This document shows, piece after piece, positions 1,549 through 47,696 of a DNA stretch of 47,696 bases (positions within the stretch are counted from its first letter, which is position 1; the number at the start of each line of letters is the position of its first letter). Location of the stretch: positions 1 through 47,696 of the forward strand of contig JAHJMN010000155.1 of the NCBI GenBank assembly GCA_018821305.1, given 5' to 3'. The translations under genes were made by a program, and so were the position numbers. The notes beneath the pieces were generated by a model that saw only the letters and a program-made list of their open reading frames with translations, was not told the origin of the DNA and made no database searches. This DNA is from Myxococcota bacterium (lineage in GTDB: Bacteria > Myxococcota_A > Polyangia > HGW-17).

Positions 1549-1796
1549 ATGAGACACGAACCTGAATCTGTGGTTCATCAGCCTGTGGCCACACAGGCGA
1601 AAGCTTTTCAGCCCGGTTCGTAAGAGCCGGGATCGGCGCCGGGGTAATCACTTAAACGTAAATGACCTCCACCCGTGAATCCGAACACGATATTGAATCC
1701 GCGGTTCATCAGCCTGTGGCCACACAGGCGAAAGCTTTTCAGCCCGGTTCGTAAGAGCCGGGATCGGCGCCGGGGTAATCACATCACTCTGAATGA
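1549..1796 (+). repeat. 130-bp structured repeat, two tandem copies (a and b)
   Basis: Two copies have a 130-bp period (the motif GTTCATCAGCCTG starts at 1573 and 1703). Each holds a GC-rich segment with two strong hairpins: GCCTGTG-GCCA-CACAGGC and CCCGGTTC-GTAA-GAGCCGGG (one G-U pair), followed by GGCGCC. About 65 nt around the hairpins is identical between copies a and b and copy d at 4261-4382. The segment is richer in GC than its surroundings. No open frame is shared, so it may be a structured RNA or DNA element. Confidence 0.85.
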
Positions 1797-1830
1797 CGCC
1801 ACCAGATTTTTCAGAGTTCAGGACGAGTTT

Positions 1831-2027
1831 TAAGACAGGACATAAAGAATGAAATCCTTGAAATTATTGTAGACGCCTGTTAGGATCTATCCGAAAATCA
1901 TTCGCTTCGCGAAGAAATTTATTAAAATTTCTAACAGGCCACTAGTAATATTTTCAACACCTTGCGGTTACTGTCCTGAGCAAAAATTGGGCGAAAAATT
2001 TGATTTTCGGTATTTCAGGACAGTAAC
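1831..2027. repeat. Hairpin elements R2a/R2b, fused in inverted orientation
   Basis: A partial forward copy (CAGGACA at 1836-1842, then the linker TTGAAATTATTGTAG) runs into a nearly complete reverse copy ending CAGGACAGTAAC (2016-2027). In the reverse copy, hairpin B is AGAAATTT/AAATTTCT instead of GGATTTT/AAAATCC, with the loop kept, so both arms changed together. It ends 23 nt before the ankyrin lipoprotein start codon and therefore forms part of its upstream region. Confidence 0.8.
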
Positions 2028-2050
2028 AACTTAACGAAAGATAAGTCAAT

Positions 2051-3802
2051 ATGAAGAGGTTTTCCTTTGTAATTATACTGCTCATTTCATCAATTATCAG
2101 TAGTGGATGTCAATTACTCACTGTATATTATACAGCAAAATCAAAAAGCCGACATCCAGTGAAACCAATGACCCCACAGGATGTTTTTCATAATTACGCC
2201 GAGAATAATAAAGTTGAGTATCTGGATAATCTTCTTGAGAAAAACAAAATTGATGTTGATGCTTATTCCAAATATTCAGGGGAAACACCGCTCTATGTGG
2301 CAGCAAAAAAAGGAAATCGTAAATTTGTAACATGGCTTATCAAGCACGGAGCACTTATCAATAAGAAGACCACTCTCCCCAGTCATGAAGAAGAAACTGC
2401 ACTTCATGGAGCAATCAGGTACGGTCAGCAGGAAACATTTGATGCTCTTTTGGAGTATGGAGCTGATTTATCAGTGAAAAACAAAACCGGTTGGACTCCT
2501 CTTCATACGGCAATTAACTTCGATCGAACTAAAATGGCAATTCGATTAATAAACCATGATATTTCTTTAAATGAGAAAAGCAACCTTGGCTGGATGCCGA
2601 TCCACCTTGCATCCGCCATGGGAAACAATGAAATTATCTCTTTGCTGATCAAAAAAGGAATTTCAGTTAATGAAAAATCAACCGGAAGTTTGCTGACTCC
2701 CCTTTTTATAGCTGTGGCGACAGGGCAAAAAGACGCTGTATCTACTTTGCTTGAAAATCAAAGCCTTGTGGATGCAAAAACAGCATGGGGTGAAACTCCC
2801 ATGAATCGGGCTATTACCGCCAAAAACATCGATATTTCAAAACTTCTTATTTCAGCAACGCCGGATTTAAAGATTGCCGAAACCGATTTAACAAAAGCAC
2901 TAAGAGGCTGCTTCCAGAAAACTCCAGAAGATTGTTATAAAATCATGGGAATGAAGTATGTGCCGTTCGTGAGGCCAATAGTTAAAATACCAATGGAAAA
3001 TCAAAAAAAATCCGTTCTGGTAGGCTGGTTCAAGTTTTCCATTTACAAACACGGGAATTGGGAGAAATTCATTGATTTCATATTGAAAGATCCGGATTTA
3101 GTTAATGTTCTGGATTCAAAGAATGATTCGTTACTATCCTATTTTGCTCAAAACGGAGATATACGAAACGCAAAAAGAATTATCAACATGGGAATCAATA
3201 TCAACACTGCTGGTGATTATAAAGAAACAGCTCTCTACAAAGCCGCAAGCTCTAAAGATTTAGCCATGGTTACCCTCCTGTTGAAACACGGTGCTAAGAT
3301 TGACATAAAAGGCATGAGGTCTCCCCTGGTTGGCTTATTTAGTAACCGATTTGGAGATGATATTACTATATGCAAGTTACTATTGAAAAATAAGGCTGAC
3401 CCTAATGCAATTGACTATGAAGGAAAGACAGCACTGCATATTACGGCGGGCTATATTTACAGAGAGCATGCAATCACTTTGCTTCTTTTTGCTGGAGTAA
3501 ATGTAAATATTCAGGATAACTATGGGAAAACAGCACTCCACTATGCTGCTGAATTCAAAAGAATACCAGCTATTCGAGAGCTTCTGAAATGGAAAACTGA
3601 CGTTCAAATTCGTGACAAGAAAGGAAGAACAGCAATTCACTACGCCGCTAACTCAGGTTCATATGATGCAGTTAAACTTCTTGTTGATGCGGGAGCCAAA
3701 GTTGACGTTAAAGATAACGAAGGCTTCCTTCCCTCATCATTCGCTCACGGGAATCCCCAAATTAAAGACCCAAGAACCCATAAACTCCTCCAGGTAAAAT
3801 AA
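2051..3802 (+). CDS. Ankyrin-repeat lipoprotein
   Basis: A 583-residue predicted lipoprotein. A hydrophobic signal peptide ends in the lipobox SSGC with Cys20. Gln at +2 argues against inner-membrane retention by the enterobacterial rule. Ankyrin repeats fill two blocks, about 77-270 and 355-560. Recognisable units include GETPLYVAAKKGN, GWTPLHTAINFD, GWMPIHLASAMGN, KTALHITAG, KTALHYAAE and RTAIHYAANSGS. The blocks are joined by about 85 residues containing two Cys (287 and 295). Ankyrin repeats bind proteins, so a periplasmic or surface binding role is likely, but the partner is unknown. The ribosome binding site is weak (GAAAGATAAG). Elements R2b and R3 flank the gene, and 130-bp direct repeats lie beyond them, suggesting a cassette-like accessory gene. 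Confidence 0.9.
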   Translation: MKRFSFVIILLISSIISSGCQLLTVYYTAKSKSRHPVKPMTPQDVFHNYAENNKVEYLDNLLEKNKIDVDAYSKYSGETPLYVAAKKGNRKFVTWLIKHGALINKKTTLPSHEEETALHGAIRYGQQETFDALLEYGADLSVKNKTGWTPLHTAINFDRTKMAIRLINHDISLNEKSNLGWMPIHLASAMGNNEIISLLIKKGISVNEKSTGSLLTPLFIAVATGQKDAVSTLLENQSLVDAKTAWGETPMNRAITAKNIDISKLLISATPDLKIAETDLTKALRGCFQKTPEDCYKIMGMKYVPFVRPIVKIPMENQKKSVLVGWFKFSIYKHGNWEKFIDFILKDPDLVNVLDSKNDSLLSYFAQNGDIRNAKRIINMGININTAGDYKETALYKAASSKDLAMVTLLLKHGAKIDIKGMRSPLVGLFSNRFGDDITICKLLLKNKADPNAIDYEGKTALHITAGYIYREHAITLLLFAGVNVNIQDNYGKTALHYAAEFKRIPAIRELLKWKTDVQIRDKKGRTAIHYAANSGSYDAVKLLVDAGAKVDVKDNEGFLPSSFAHGNPQIKDPRTHKLLQVK

Positions 3803-3807
3803 ATATT

Positions 3808-3930
3808 TAGTTACTGTCCTGTAATACAATAAATCAAATTTTTCGCCGATTTTTTGCTCAGGACAGTGACCGCAAAATGTTGAATTTACTATTAGCCAGG
3901 ATTTTTAATAAAATCCTTCGCGAAGCTAAT
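3808..3930 (+). repeat. Hairpin element R3, interrupted at its right end
   Basis: Starts with TAGTTACTGTCCTG (3808-3821), six bases after the ankyrin gene stop. Hairpin A closes with CAGGACAGT (3859-3867), followed by the linker, hairpin B (GGATTTTTAATAAAATCC) and CTTCGCGAAG. At GCTAAT (3925-3930) the expected GCGAATTACAGG end is lost. GCTAATTACAGG resumes at 4024-4035, consistent with an insertion at 3931-4029 bounded by GCTAAT direct repeats. Confidence 0.8.
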
Positions 3931-4029
3931 ATGCCCCTTTCCCCCTTCCTTGCGCCGACGCAGGCGGCGCAAGGAAGGGGGAAAGGGCGGACAGGAACGC
4001 TTAACCCAGAGCTGAAGCACTGGGCTAAT
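3931..4029 (+). repeat. Small insertion with a long perfect hairpin inside element R3
   Basis: The segment begins with a 22-bp stem: arm one 3935-3956, loop GACGCAGGC (3957-3965), arm two 3966-3987. A second hairpin, CCCAG...CTGGG, follows. It is bounded by GCTAAT at 3925-3930 and 4024-4029, which resembles a 6-bp target duplication. It has no coding capacity that I trust. It could be a tiny non-autonomous element nested in R3. Confidence 0.5.
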
Positions 4030-4080
4030 TACAGGCGTTCTTGCGAACGCGGAAAATCCGACGTTTTGTTATCACGCTGA

Positions 4081-4382
4081 CGTGAATGACGCCACCCGTG
4101 AATCCGAACACGACCCTGAATCCACGGTTCATAAAAACCACGGAATTACGCAATCCTGAATTTTCGGTAAACCCTCAAAATAGACACGGAAAAAGAGCTA
4201 CAACGTGGCTCACACACATTAGCGAAGGCATCAAAGATCCCTGGTGGGCGCCGGGGTAATCACATAAACGTGAATGACGCCACCCGTGAATCCGAACACG
4301 ACCCTGAATCTGCGGATCATCAGCCTGTGGCCACACAGGCGAAAGCTTTTCAGCCCGGTTCGTAAGAGCCGGGATCGGCGCC
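4081..4382 (+). repeat. 130-bp structured repeat, copies c (rearranged) and d
   Basis: Copy d (4261-4382) carries both hairpins seen at 1549-1796: GCCTGTG/CACAGGC (4323-4340) and CCCGGTTC/GAGCCGGG (4354-4373), then GGCGCC. Copy c keeps both flanks (4081-4131 and 4247-4260), but its central hairpin segment is replaced by about 115 unrelated bases. These copies and copies a/b lie in direct orientation on either side of the ankyrin gene. Confidence 0.8.
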
Positions 4383-5253: not shown

Positions 5254-5410
5254 TAGTTCGTGTCCTGAAATTCAATTTTTGTCAAAATTGAGCATGTTTA
5301 TGAAAACATGCTATTCAGAACACTACAATAATATCAAGGTTATCACTCTTAATGTCCTGTGTCGAATTTTGGTGAAAACTTGAAAAGATCGTATTACAGG
5401 ACATTAACTA
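5254..5410 (-). repeat. Hairpin element R4 (full length), overlapping the GH9 stop codon
   Basis: A complete 157-bp copy with ends TAGTTCGTGTCCTG (5254-5267) and CAGGACATTAACTA (5397-5410). Internal hairpins are CAATTTT/AAAATTG (5273-5290), AGCATGTTT/AAACATGCT (5291-5312), and TTAATGTCCTGT (5349-5360) with ACAGGACATTAA (5396-5407). The GH9 stop codon TAA (5404-5406) lies inside its terminal repeat, so the element forms the 3' end of that transcript and may act as a terminator or RNA end structure. Confidence 0.85.
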
Positions 5411-8406
5411 ATTAACGTTTTCCGGAGAATGATAATTGAAAGCAGCGTAAACAGAAGGAAAAACGCTGGAGCTTTGCTTTCCCTTGTACCATGTGTTCTA
5501 CAACTGCAGCCTGAATCATCATTTCCACATCCGTTGTCAACGATGCCGTTGCAATCATTATCAAGCTGGTCACCGCATACTTCCTCAGAAGGTAAAACTT
5601 CCTGAGTGCATGGGCCCCACTGACTGTTCTCACAAGTCTGAATTCCAGCACTGCAGACACCAATTCCCGCCGTTTCTGCGGGGCCACTATAACATGCTCG
5701 CTGATTCCCATTGGAGCAATCGCCTCCGCAATATGGAATAGCAGTATTGACGCATGTATTTGTGTCGAGGTTGCAGTTATCTATTGTACACTGGTCATTA
5801 TCTTCGCAATCCTCGTCAGTGTCACAAATCTTCTCAAAGGTAGCTGTCAAATAGGTGGGGGCATTAAGGGTGAGAATGCAGGTTTCCGTTCCGGAGCAGG
5901 CCCCGGACCACCCAGTGAAAATATTATCTGTATCAGATTGAGCGCTGAGCGTGATTTCGGTACCCGTAGTAAAAGCAGCACTGCAGGTCTGGCCACACTC
6001 AATTCCTGCAGGAGAAGATGTCACAATCCCGGAACCAGACCCGGCAGAATAAACAGTCAAAGTTGGATCTGAAGGGCCTGCAGATTGAGACAGGCTATGC
6101 AGATAACCGTAGAGAGCCATTTTGCCCCGCATAGTCTGCTGAGGTGTGAATTCAGAATGAGCCCATACCCATGGAGTATCAAAATATCCTTCAGCTATGG
6201 GCCAATTGCCACTGAATGCCGGATAGCAATGGGCAGCCATATCGGATGGAGATCCCATGCCCATGTAGTTCCAATCATCGAGATTCATGTAGGGTGTGTG
6301 CCCTGGATGACTACCCGGATACCCATCTGCGTTTCCAGATGTGTAAATGTAAAAAGGACTGTTTTTTTCCTGTAAAACAGTTGATTGAGTGGTCATTTGA
6401 ATCTGGTTGAGAGGATTTCTTCCAAGACCCCAGTCGGCTTCAAGGGTCAGAGCCCGCAGGAAGAATTCCTTTTCACCTGCATCATCTGTTATGGCATGAG
6501 CAACAAGTGAAAGATGAACATTTTGAATTGTATGGAAATAAAGAACATAGTCTTGATTGGTAGCCGCCCTCCTAGATGGACGAGATAGAGTGTAATTGGC
6601 TTCAGTCTCCGAAGCCTGATCAATAAAGGCCTGATGGATACCATTCTGAAGATCCGGATAATTGACTGTCTGAGGAGTAAATAAATAGGCAACGCTGCCC
6701 CAAATTTGATTGGTTTCACCCGTCAGTAACGTGTCGTTTGTTGAATTGATTACACTTTCTTCATTAATTACATCTTCATAATCAGTATTACCCGTAAGGT
6801 TATAAAGGTATGCAGCAGCCATCATTTTAAGGTCGCGTCCAGTACCTGCACCACCGGAAGAGTTATCAAGCATTTGATCTGTTTGACTTAGTGCGTGATT
6901 GTAAGCTGATATTGCTTCCGTTGTATAGTAATCAGACAAAGACTGCTGATTTCCAACAAGACGAAGTGCCTCCGCCAGCATTGCACAGTTTGCGGCATTG
7001 GCCCAGGCAGCAACAGTGGTGGCTCCAGCCTGATAAAGAATGTACTGACCGTTATCCTCCATTGGATTGTTAAGTCCGTGTGAGTATCCACCCTGGCTAT
7101 CCCTGAGACGCAGCCAGAAATCAACTTCCCAGGCGGCACTGTCGATAACGTCGGGAATGCCATTTCCACTTTCGGAAATCCCTGTATTATCGTCATTCAG
7201 CGCTCCCTGAGATAAAATTACAGGAAGCAGTAAATCGTAAATAGAGGGTATATGACCAAGGTGCCTGTCCCAATCAGCTGCATCTGAATAGCCACCCCAG
7301 GCACTGTCATTGGTTGGATTTCCCGGAAGCATATATGCGGCCCACTCTGTTGTTCGGTCCCATTTATCGCCACCGGCAAAGGATTCCCAATCCTGATGAT
7401 ATGGATGCATTGAAGTTAGATAAACGATAGTATCGGTTCCCGGTATAAAAAGTGGTGTTCGTGTGGGAGGCGTAATTGATGAGTCTTCGTGCCCGATACG
7501 CATGTAGTAATAACCTCGAAGGGAAACCTCAAATGGTGCACGATATGCGTTGTTGCCAATTACAAAATCTTCGCTGCATCCGACACCTTCGACTACGAGA
7601 CGATAAGTACCGGGAGTTGAAAAAGCGTCAAAGTCGATGTTCCAAACGGTGGAATGCAGCATATTGTAATGATAAACATCAGTTCCATCATCCTGCCAAT
7701 AAACTACAGTGCCAACTGCAATGGATGTCTGGTTGTTAACATCATAAATATATACGGTATTTCCCTCAAAACTGCTGTAATCCCGGGCAGCACCATCTCC
7801 CATCCAGTGGTAAAGGTCGGCGGCTTTCCCCGGAGAGTCGGCAAGATAACCAACCAGATTGGTATGTATTGCGGGAGAGACGCTTGAAAAGATGTCGAAA
7901 GTAATGGAACGCTGGTCTGGGGCATTGGTAGACGAATCAATTGTTACAGTATAATTACTACCCTGAACCAGGGAGTTTGGTAACCGCAGATATAAATAGT
8001 GCTGGAGAGTAACTTCGTAATTATAGTCATTAATCGAGCTGTTCCAGCCAGTTTGTGCGTGTCCACTCAACGTGGTCTTTCGGTACACAAAGTTGGGGTT
8101 GACACCCCCTGCGTAGTTTCCATCGTCATTTGAGGTGATAGTCCAGTTGCCAGTGTCAATTGCTTCGGATATATTTAATTCAGGAGTGAACCGATTGACG
8201 ATGTCGTCCTGATCACTTCCAGATTCAGTGTGTGTGACACTTCCATCGGAAATACGGACAACGATAATATCTTTATCAAGTATCTTGATATCAAGTACTT
8301 GAGCAGAATTGGCCATACGTGGAATAAGCAGAAGAAAGCAGAAAGCAGAAAAAACGAAGAAGCGAGTTGCATAACGCAAAGTGGAGGGATGGTTCAGGTT
8401 AATCAT
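5404..8406 (-). CDS. GH9 cellulase-like glycosidase with MopE-like region and MYXO-CTERM-like tail
   Basis: A 1000-residue exported enzyme. I chose ATG 8406 because GGGAGA lies just upstream and a normal signal peptide (about 1-35, ending ANSA) follows; the longer frame to 8472 only reads into repeat R5. Order: Ig-like CelD_N-type domain (about 180-290); GH9 catalytic domain (about 300-770) with GGYSDAADWDRH (base and nucleophile-region Asp residues), GNGIPDVIDSAAWEVDFW, HPGHTPYMNLDDW and SEFTPQQTMRGKMALYGYL (likely acid Glu). Next come a divergent InlB-type repeat (GWSGACSGTETC), a Cys-rich segment and a MopE-like CGDQLDNDCNGIVDNGC. The tail has Cys967 and Cys969, a hydrophobic stretch and a terminal LRKTLIS, resembling a MYXO-CTERM sorting signal. 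It probably cleaves beta-glucans at the cell surface. The exact substrate is unproven. Confidence 0.9.
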   Translation of the reverse strand: MINLNHPSTLRYATRFFVFSAFCFLLLIPRMANSAQVLDIKILDKDIIVVRISDGSVTHTESGSDQDDIVNRFTPELNISEAIDTGNWTITSNDDGNYAGGVNPNFVYRKTTLSGHAQTGWNSSINDYNYEVTLQHYLYLRLPNSLVQGSNYTVTIDSSTNAPDQRSITFDIFSSVSPAIHTNLVGYLADSPGKAADLYHWMGDGAARDYSSFEGNTVYIYDVNNQTSIAVGTVVYWQDDGTDVYHYNMLHSTVWNIDFDAFSTPGTYRLVVEGVGCSEDFVIGNNAYRAPFEVSLRGYYYMRIGHEDSSITPPTRTPLFIPGTDTIVYLTSMHPYHQDWESFAGGDKWDRTTEWAAYMLPGNPTNDSAWGGYSDAADWDRHLGHIPSIYDLLLPVILSQGALNDDNTGISESGNGIPDVIDSAAWEVDFWLRLRDSQGGYSHGLNNPMEDNGQYILYQAGATTVAAWANAANCAMLAEALRLVGNQQSLSDYYTTEAISAYNHALSQTDQMLDNSSGGAGTGRDLKMMAAAYLYNLTGNTDYEDVINEESVINSTNDTLLTGETNQIWGSVAYLFTPQTVNYPDLQNGIHQAFIDQASETEANYTLSRPSRRAATNQDYVLYFHTIQNVHLSLVAHAITDDAGEKEFFLRALTLEADWGLGRNPLNQIQMTTQSTVLQEKNSPFYIYTSGNADGYPGSHPGHTPYMNLDDWNYMGMGSPSDMAAHCYPAFSGNWPIAEGYFDTPWVWAHSEFTPQQTMRGKMALYGYLHSLSQSAGPSDPTLTVYSAGSGSGIVTSSPAGIECGQTCSAAFTTGTEITLSAQSDTDNIFTGWSGACSGTETCILTLNAPTYLTATFEKICDTDEDCEDNDQCTIDNCNLDTNTCVNTAIPYCGGDCSNGNQRACYSGPAETAGIGVCSAGIQTCENSQWGPCTQEVLPSEEVCGDQLDNDCNGIVDNGCGNDDSGCSCRTHGTRESKAPAFFLLFTLLSIIILRKTLIS

Positions 8407-22264: not shown

Positions 22265-22342
22265 TTGTGTTCTAAATCCTTTGATATGATTACTTTACAT
22301 TTTAAATCGCGCAAATACAAGTCGTTTTTAAGGACCGAACCA

Positions 22343-22537
22343 TACCGCTTCCTGAGTAAAAGGATCGAAATCTAAAAAGTGAATATTTGCTTCAATTTTT
22401 TGTAATTTTACATTGAGATTAGATGTTTATGACCTGACCCTGTTACCTGTTACCTGTTTACCCGAGTCCCTGTTAAAAAATTTCAGTTAAACAGGAAATC
22501 AGGAGCAGTAACAGGAAAACAGAAAAACAGGTTCAGG
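22343..22537 (+). repeat. Long intergenic repeat, copy downstream of the NlpC/P60-like gene
   Basis: Shares with 23572-23745, in the same orientation, the string ATACCGCTT, AAAGGATCGAAA, AAAAGTGAAT, TTTGTAATT, ATGTTTATGACCTGA and CCTG, followed by a second-family palindrome (CCTGTTTACCCGAG...TTTCAGTTAAACAGG, then AACAGG). These copies bracket the 22607-23485 gene. The gap 22265-22606 holds nothing else I can assign. Confidence 0.75.
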
Positions 22538-23571: not shown

Positions 23572-23745
23572 TATACCGCTTGCGGTATAAAAGGATCGAA
23601 ACGGGAAAAGTGAATGTTTTCATCCTTCTATTTGTAATTATGCTTTGATGTTGAATGTTTATGACCTGATCCTGATCCTGTTTGCCTGACTACCTGATTT
23701 ACTGTTTAAATTTCAGGTAATCAGGGAAACAGAGTCACGCTCTGT
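23572..23745 (+). repeat. Long intergenic repeat, copy upstream of the NlpC/P60-like gene
   Basis: Begins with the perfect stem ATACCGC-TT-GCGGTAT (23572-23587), continues with the string shared with 22343-22537, then the palindrome CCTGACTACCTGATTTA...TTTCAGGTAATCAGG and a small hairpin ACAGAG/CTCTGT (23729-23745). The rest of the gap 23486-23820 holds the terminator described next. Confidence 0.75.
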
Positions 23746-47473: not shown

Positions 47474-47502
47474 AAAAATTTCAGGTCATATCCTGTGCGT
47501 GG

Positions 47503-47557
47503 CCGGATAGGATTTTTAATAAAATCATTCGCGAAGCGAATTTCCGGACACGAACTA
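47503..47557 (+). repeat. Hairpin element R10 (right half)
   Basis: GGCCGGATAGGATTTTTAAT, hairpin B/C sequence, then CCGGACACGAACTA. It lacks hairpin A. Its last bases overlap the start of R11 through ACTAGT, so the two copies are joined head to tail. Confidence 0.8.
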
Positions 47558-47696
47558 GTTAATGTCCTGTAATACCAAGTTTTCAAGTTTAGGCCAAATT
47601 CCTGCACAGGACATTAAGAATGAAGACCTTGAAATTATTGTAGTGTTCTGAATAGCATGTTTTCGTAAACATGCTCAATTTTGATAAAAATTGAAT
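47556..47696 (+). repeat. Hairpin element R11, runs off the window
   Basis: TAGTTAATGTCCTGT (47556-47570), closing arm ACAGGACATTAA, linker TTGAAATTATTGTAGTGTTC, hairpin AGCATGTTT/AAACATGCT and hairpin CAATTTT/AAAATTG. It is the reverse-complement relative of R4 and its right end lies beyond the window. Confidence 0.85.

Follow-up and report, generated by a model that had tools for sequence, protein, structure and literature searches.

The window, a stretch of 47,696 nt from a Myxococcota bacterium, contains two arrays of structured repeats on either side of a gene (2051..3802, + strand) encoding an ankyrin-repeat protein of 583 aa with a lipoprotein-type signal, ISSGCQ, recognized by eye. 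An earlier note on this DNA had described structured direct repeats with an identical core that flank the ankyrin gene; this description holds, with the identical stretch in copies a, b, and d measuring 66 nt. It consists of TCATCA, hairpin H1 (GCCTGTGGCCACACAGGC), a 12-nt spacer between the two hairpins, hairpin H2 (GCCCGGTTCGTAAGAGCCGGG), and ATCGGCGCC. Copies a and b are spaced by 131 bp and copies b and d by 2611 bp, identity from copy to copy is 90-95%, well above what chance would give, and the core has a G+C content of 58-60% vs 41.7% for the window. Folding of the 131-nt copies on the + strand gives z = -2.3, and the advantage over shuffles is smaller on the minus strand.

The first array, entirely on the + strand, starts with a copy of what we call module A (copy a, 1571..1632, 85.8 bits with model R1), which is made of a leader, H1 (1581-1598), the 12-nt spacer, and H2 (1611-1631). 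It continues through a linker, GGTAATCAC...TGAATCCGCGGTTCATCA, that joins array modules (1633..1701), into copy b (1702..1763, 87.2 bits; H1 1712-1729, H2 1742-1762), and is truncated within the start of another linker (1764..1804). The second array opens with P and B (3935-4049): a long palindrome P, CCTTTCCCCCTTCCTTGCGCC...GGCGCAAGGAAGGGGGAAAGG (3935..3987, assigned to neither strand), which in complete units lies between modules A and B, and module B (4005..4049, + strand), a double hairpin CCCAGAGCTGAAGCACTGGG-CTAATTACAG-GCGTTCTTGCGAACGC. These are followed on the + strand by a linker without module A (about 4068..4132), module C (4190..4244), a further mosaic block with a GAGCTACAACGTGGCTC hairpin and GGCATCAAAGATCCC, a linker leading to copy d (4245..4312), and module A copy d itself (4313..4374, 89.4 bits; H1 4323-4340, H2 4353-4373). 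The two strong hairpins reported by the earlier note are thus present as H1 and H2, but its account left out the third module at 3935-4049, and of its four copies a, b, and d carry the hairpins while c, likely the linker at about 4068..4132, has none.

Other repeats occur in the window as well. A 62-bp tandem repeat of about 6 units (1073-1568) lies immediately upstream of the first array. Another dispersed hairpin family, ACTGTCCTG...CAGGACAGT with TTCGCGAAGCGAA, is found at 1-125, 1900-2024, 3813-3895, 5267-5413, and 47499-47696; it also surrounds the ankyrin gene and occupies both ends of the contig, and is therefore probably an assembly breaker. Two further repeats (22342-22478 and 23573-23710) consist of ATACCGCTTCCTGAGTAAAAGGATCGAAA and a CCTGTTACCTG-rich block, and sequence related to these is found at the edges of several other hairpin arrays.

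A genome search with the core had been proposed to look for further copies, and these are abundant: within the 5.22-Mb genome (216 contigs) BLAST gave 69 matches and the covariance model about 80, many close to contig ends. Outside this genome module A was not recovered, with no DNA match in 38 relatives, only noise-level covariance-model matches among 58 relatives, and 0 matches to its exact IUPAC pattern over 85,000 genomes. Every array examined is intergenic, with overlapping ORFs that are either spurious or made of repeat sequence, and many arrays begin a few bp after a gene. The arrays are mosaics of modules A (H1+H2), B (with hairpins CCCAGAGC... and GGCGTTC...), C, and palindrome P, connected through a linker of about 70-78 nt and almost always on one strand. 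Copies of module A follow each other head-to-tail at a spacing of 123-137 bp. Where a unit runs from A to B, 23 of 25 have a centre of 85-92 bp with a single long palindrome, variable in sequence but conserved in its pairing.

This distribution bears on the suggestion that the direct repeats are a device for excising or amplifying the ankyrin lipoprotein gene. Identical 66-nt stretches in direct orientation flank the gene, and RecA-dependent deletion between them is possible in principle, but the gene is single-copy in the genome (the other matches are ankyrin proteins of about 30% identity), and many other genes are flanked by the same repeats. A genome of the same genus, with 68-70% DNA identity, is not syntenic, and we saw no empty site or excision product. 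The ankyrin gene is not the only one with such a repeat pair: arrays of the same elements lie between many unrelated genes. The gene appears to be a bystander, incidental to the repeats, and we regard its excision or amplification through them as unsupported and very improbable. The approximately 130-bp repeats resemble attC/VCR sites in length and hairpin folding, as would fit an integron cassette array. Each repeat, however, forms two distinct hairpins and shares a linker with the others, where attC would form a single long imperfect dyad. Inspection by eye revealed no RYYYAAC/GTTRRRY core sites, the would-be cassettes are irregularly spaced, and only 3 tyrosine recombinases are present in the genome, none assigned as IntI, so that this reading is extremely improbable.

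The two hairpins of module A are maintained by compensatory change. In alignment A2, which consists of model hits and leans toward the structure, 98.1% of cells are paired and both stems covary strongly, with 134 double-change cells vs 29 in shuffles and 0 of 500 shuffles as high; we quote covariation from A2 because the pattern used to select alignment A1 fixes the outer stem letters. Among divergent copies, H1 appears at the same place as GCCTGTG/CACAGGC, GTCC/GGAC, or GCCCATT/AATGGGC. Such pairing also bears on whether these are ordinary tandem and dispersed repeats, produced by recombination and replication slippage and now inert, with only a historical link to a transposase. Local duplication fits the head-to-tail A copies at their spacing of 123-137 bp, and also the finding that a, b, and d resemble one another more closely, but slippage cannot carry units to about 40 contigs, and it keeps neither compensatory hairpin pairing nor the layout of A, palindrome, and B. 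We consider inert repeat DNA unlikely.

Rfam at its gathering threshold returned only a tRNA. At a relaxed threshold, Acido-Lenti-1 (AL1, RF01687) matched both modules below the gathering threshold of 37, with 28.0 bits for module B (+ strand) and 18.1 bits for module A (minus strand). The latter match covers 1602-1631 of copy a, which read on this strand is a divergent AL1-like double hairpin. The same family gives 49 matches in the whole genome, scoring 18-34 bits with a best of 33.9, all below 37. The match is specific, as the family is found in 5 of 58 relatives and 0 of 14 control genomes. Across the phylum 24 of 377 genomes are positive, often with many copies and some as inverted pairs. 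A model (R2) of 31 elements from elsewhere, none from this genome and with 12 of 13 pairs covarying, recovers modules A and B of this genome with up to 38 bits (E 4e-9), including module B in the window (22.2 bits, E 2e-4). Like Acido-Lenti-1, the modules have a tandem double hairpin with a conserved GGCU after hairpin 1 and similar spacing, and the loop CTTACG is common to module A and planctomycete Acido-Lenti-1 copies. Unlike Acido-Lenti-1, module A is without NTAG, its second hairpin is longer, and the copies in this genome form arrays with a linker of their own. Module A read on its minus strand is a divergent relative of Acido-Lenti-1, and module B is also related. Two other candidates were rejected: a hammerhead ribozyme, hinted at by GTCCGCGAGGACGAAA in some copies, for which the core bases are unconserved and no such Rfam match was found, and miRNA families, whose matches on the long palindrome are chance matches to a perfect hairpin. 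Acido-Lenti-1 came from a screen that described it as 'probably RNA, not cis-regulatory' (Weinberg 2010, PMC2864571), Rfam has filed it since 2010 with its function given as unknown, and a 2026 paper suggests that it regulates proteases in Tannerella forsythia (PMC13298647).

The genome contains 3 Y1 transposase genes, none of them on the window contig. An AL1-like element of the module B type lies on each side of two of them, on contigs C8 and C84 (the latter encoding a TnpA of 142 aa), and the elements point outward, giving the order AL1(-)-tnpA-AL1(+); the third gene, on contig C131, has no adjacent AL1. A Deltaproteobacteria MAG of the same class but another family has a tnpA with outward AL1 on both sides, and its protein is 40% identical. 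To this we added 80 tnpA loci from named genomes, fetched by protein alone; one was the Deltaproteobacteria MAG again, leaving 79 further loci, which come from other phyla. Relatives of the transposase include one from the cultured Desulfoferrobacter suflitae. In Rfam scans of 40 of the tnpA loci, most genes proved to have AL1 next to them, with up to 57.9 bits. With R2, whose 31 elements flank tnpA genes, AL1 lies within 200 bp at 66 of the 79 loci, on both sides at 42, and in the outward layout at 36; the 13 loci without AL1 are mostly from Bacteroidota. The upstream AL1 is on the minus strand in 43 of 50 cases and the downstream AL1 on the plus strand in 52 of 58. Its distance is mostly 45-70 bp from either gene end, with few matches beyond 500 bp. 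Some of the 79 loci had gone into R2, which leaves the Rfam scans and 39 held-out loci as the only data free of circularity; AL1 was found in 28 of these held-out loci, with 37 of 44 flanks outward (p = 3e-6). At control loci R2 gave no off-centre match below E 0.5. NTAG, mostly ATAG or GTAG, stands just 5′ of hairpin 1 in 26 of the 31 flanking copies; in its place module B has TAG and module A has CAG.

Starting instead from AL1, a Y1 gene was found within 1.5 kb at only 1 of 56 loci, probably because most AL1 copies are tnpA-less. Co-occurrence at the genome level is modest, with any Y1 gene in 17 of 24 AL1-positive vs 8 of 24 AL1-negative genomes (p = 0.02). No Y1 gene was detectable in the other 7 AL1-positive genomes of the phylum, and MAG gaps may explain some of these. 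One of the Y1-less genomes, G059, has at least 15 near-identical RF01687 copies; either the gene is absent from the MAG, or another enzyme moves the copies. Two side observations concern individual loci. The C8 tnpA element (L061:1028-2627) adjoins a CRISPR array with repeat ATTTCCGCTTCTGAAAAGAAGCGGCTCCATTGAAGC, and degenerate copies of this repeat flank the upstream AL1 copies, as if the element had inserted at the array end. Similar Y1 genes are also found as pairs, 1-2.5 kb apart or less, at G118:C77 and G224:C183.

The earlier note had allowed for an undescribed structured RNA. Structure, about 80 copies, strong covariation, and kinship to an RNA-annotated Rfam family all stand, but we replace the RNA reading with a DNA reading because related elements flank Y1 genes in a fixed geometry across phyla. 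A genuine structured RNA would be a transcribed double hairpin, acting as a small RNA or an mRNA 3′-end element, that the transposase merely uses as an insertion site. It would fit the covariation, the + strand that folds better than shuffles with the minus strand less so, the many arrays that begin just past a gene, and the filing of Acido-Lenti-1 as RNA in Rfam. Single-stranded DNA hairpins would also covary, however, the gene context is varied, and the copies sit in long repeated arrays and inverted pairs; flanking of tnpA outward on both sides at 45-70 bp suits element ends rather than an RNA gene. We therefore consider an RNA quite improbable.

The Y1 proteins of this genome fit the signature of TnpA-Y1 subclass 1.2 (DH[IV]H, WQ, and Y---Q--HH, about 148 aa, low copy number; Quentin 2018, PMC6006769), and across the transposases considered here the Y motif is present in 79 of 82 proteins and all three motifs, counted with WQxGY, in 52 of 82. 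Subclass 1.2 has been described mainly from Cyanobacteria and Bacteroidetes, with no associated repeats or REP listed (PMC6006769), whereas here most of the genes have AL1 and the hosts are Planctomycetota, Acidobacteriota, Verrucomicrobiota, Lentisphaerota, and Deltaproteobacteria. Class 3 TnpA-Y1, known from Planctomycetes and Acidobacteria with atypical structures in high copy, about 600 in Solibacter usitatus (PMC6006769), was rejected since its signature (NHVH, W[TA], foot CnGA, 178 aa) differs from that of the transposases here. NCBIfam NF033573 (IS200/IS605) names the two Y1 proteins scanned, those of C84 and C131; in contrast to IS200/IS605 (subclass 1.1), we noticed no tnpB beside the genes, the flanks are inverted double hairpins, and the elements far outnumber the gene. 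RAYT (NF047646) scores 23-25 bits against a cut-off of 80.

Altogether, the repeats are probably REP/BIME-like palindromic mobile elements, kin to Acido-Lenti-1, with a short Y1 (HUH, single-tyrosine) TnpA as their cognate enzyme. As in REP/BIME systems (PMC2817692, PMC3116915, PMC8266576), many palindromic copies with compensatory changes are intergenic and occur as inverted pairs, here the A-palindrome-B units, and as mosaic clusters. As in a REPtron, a Y1 gene lies between two inverted copies (C8, C84, the MAG of the other family, and the 36 outward loci). The A-to-B unit, organized as AL1(-)-palindrome-AL1(+), corresponds to the C8 and C84 elements minus the gene and resembles a REPIN; the NTAG 5′ of hairpin 1 in most tnpA-flanking copies resembles the REP foot (PMC8266576). 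The systems differ in that REPs have a single hairpin and a foot that is strictly GTAG, whereas here the hairpin is double and the foot is ATAG/GTAG or none; a long central palindrome, a linker of about 70-78 nt, and an enzyme outside the RAYT class also distinguish the elements here.

We infer that the elements transpose as single-stranded DNA. When a strand becomes single during lagging-strand replication or transcription, its two hairpins would fold, and TnpA would bind the hairpins on that strand, cut nearby, and paste the element in trans into other single-stranded sites. The full element is AL1(-)-tnpA-AL1(+), as on C8 and C84, and the tnpA-less unit comprises module A (AL1 minus), a palindromic centre of about 90 bp, and module B (AL1 plus). 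Single modules would then be amplified into arrays, head to tail and joined by a common linker, and copies a, b, and d in the window would be tnpA-less array members beside an unrelated gene.

For the family as a whole, Acido-Lenti-1 is likely the DNA recognition element (REP) of TnpA-Y1 subclass 1.2, suggesting one more REP/transposase system, in which the substrate is a double hairpin, in Planctomycetota, Acidobacteriota, Verrucomicrobiota, Lentisphaerota, Deltaproteobacteria, and some Bacteroidota, with multi-module mosaics in this lineage. We found no link between Acido-Lenti-1 and subclass 1.2 TnpA in the literature, subscription papers being outside the search. The Acido-Lenti-1 "RNA" is most likely the DNA end-piece of the transposase's element, which would provide a function for an orphan Rfam family and a substrate for an orphan transposase subclass. 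Acido-Lenti-1 matches should then not be taken as regulatory RNAs (cf. the Tannerella forsythia proposal, PMC13298647), and RNA discovery based on covariation can also catch the ends of single-stranded-DNA transposons.
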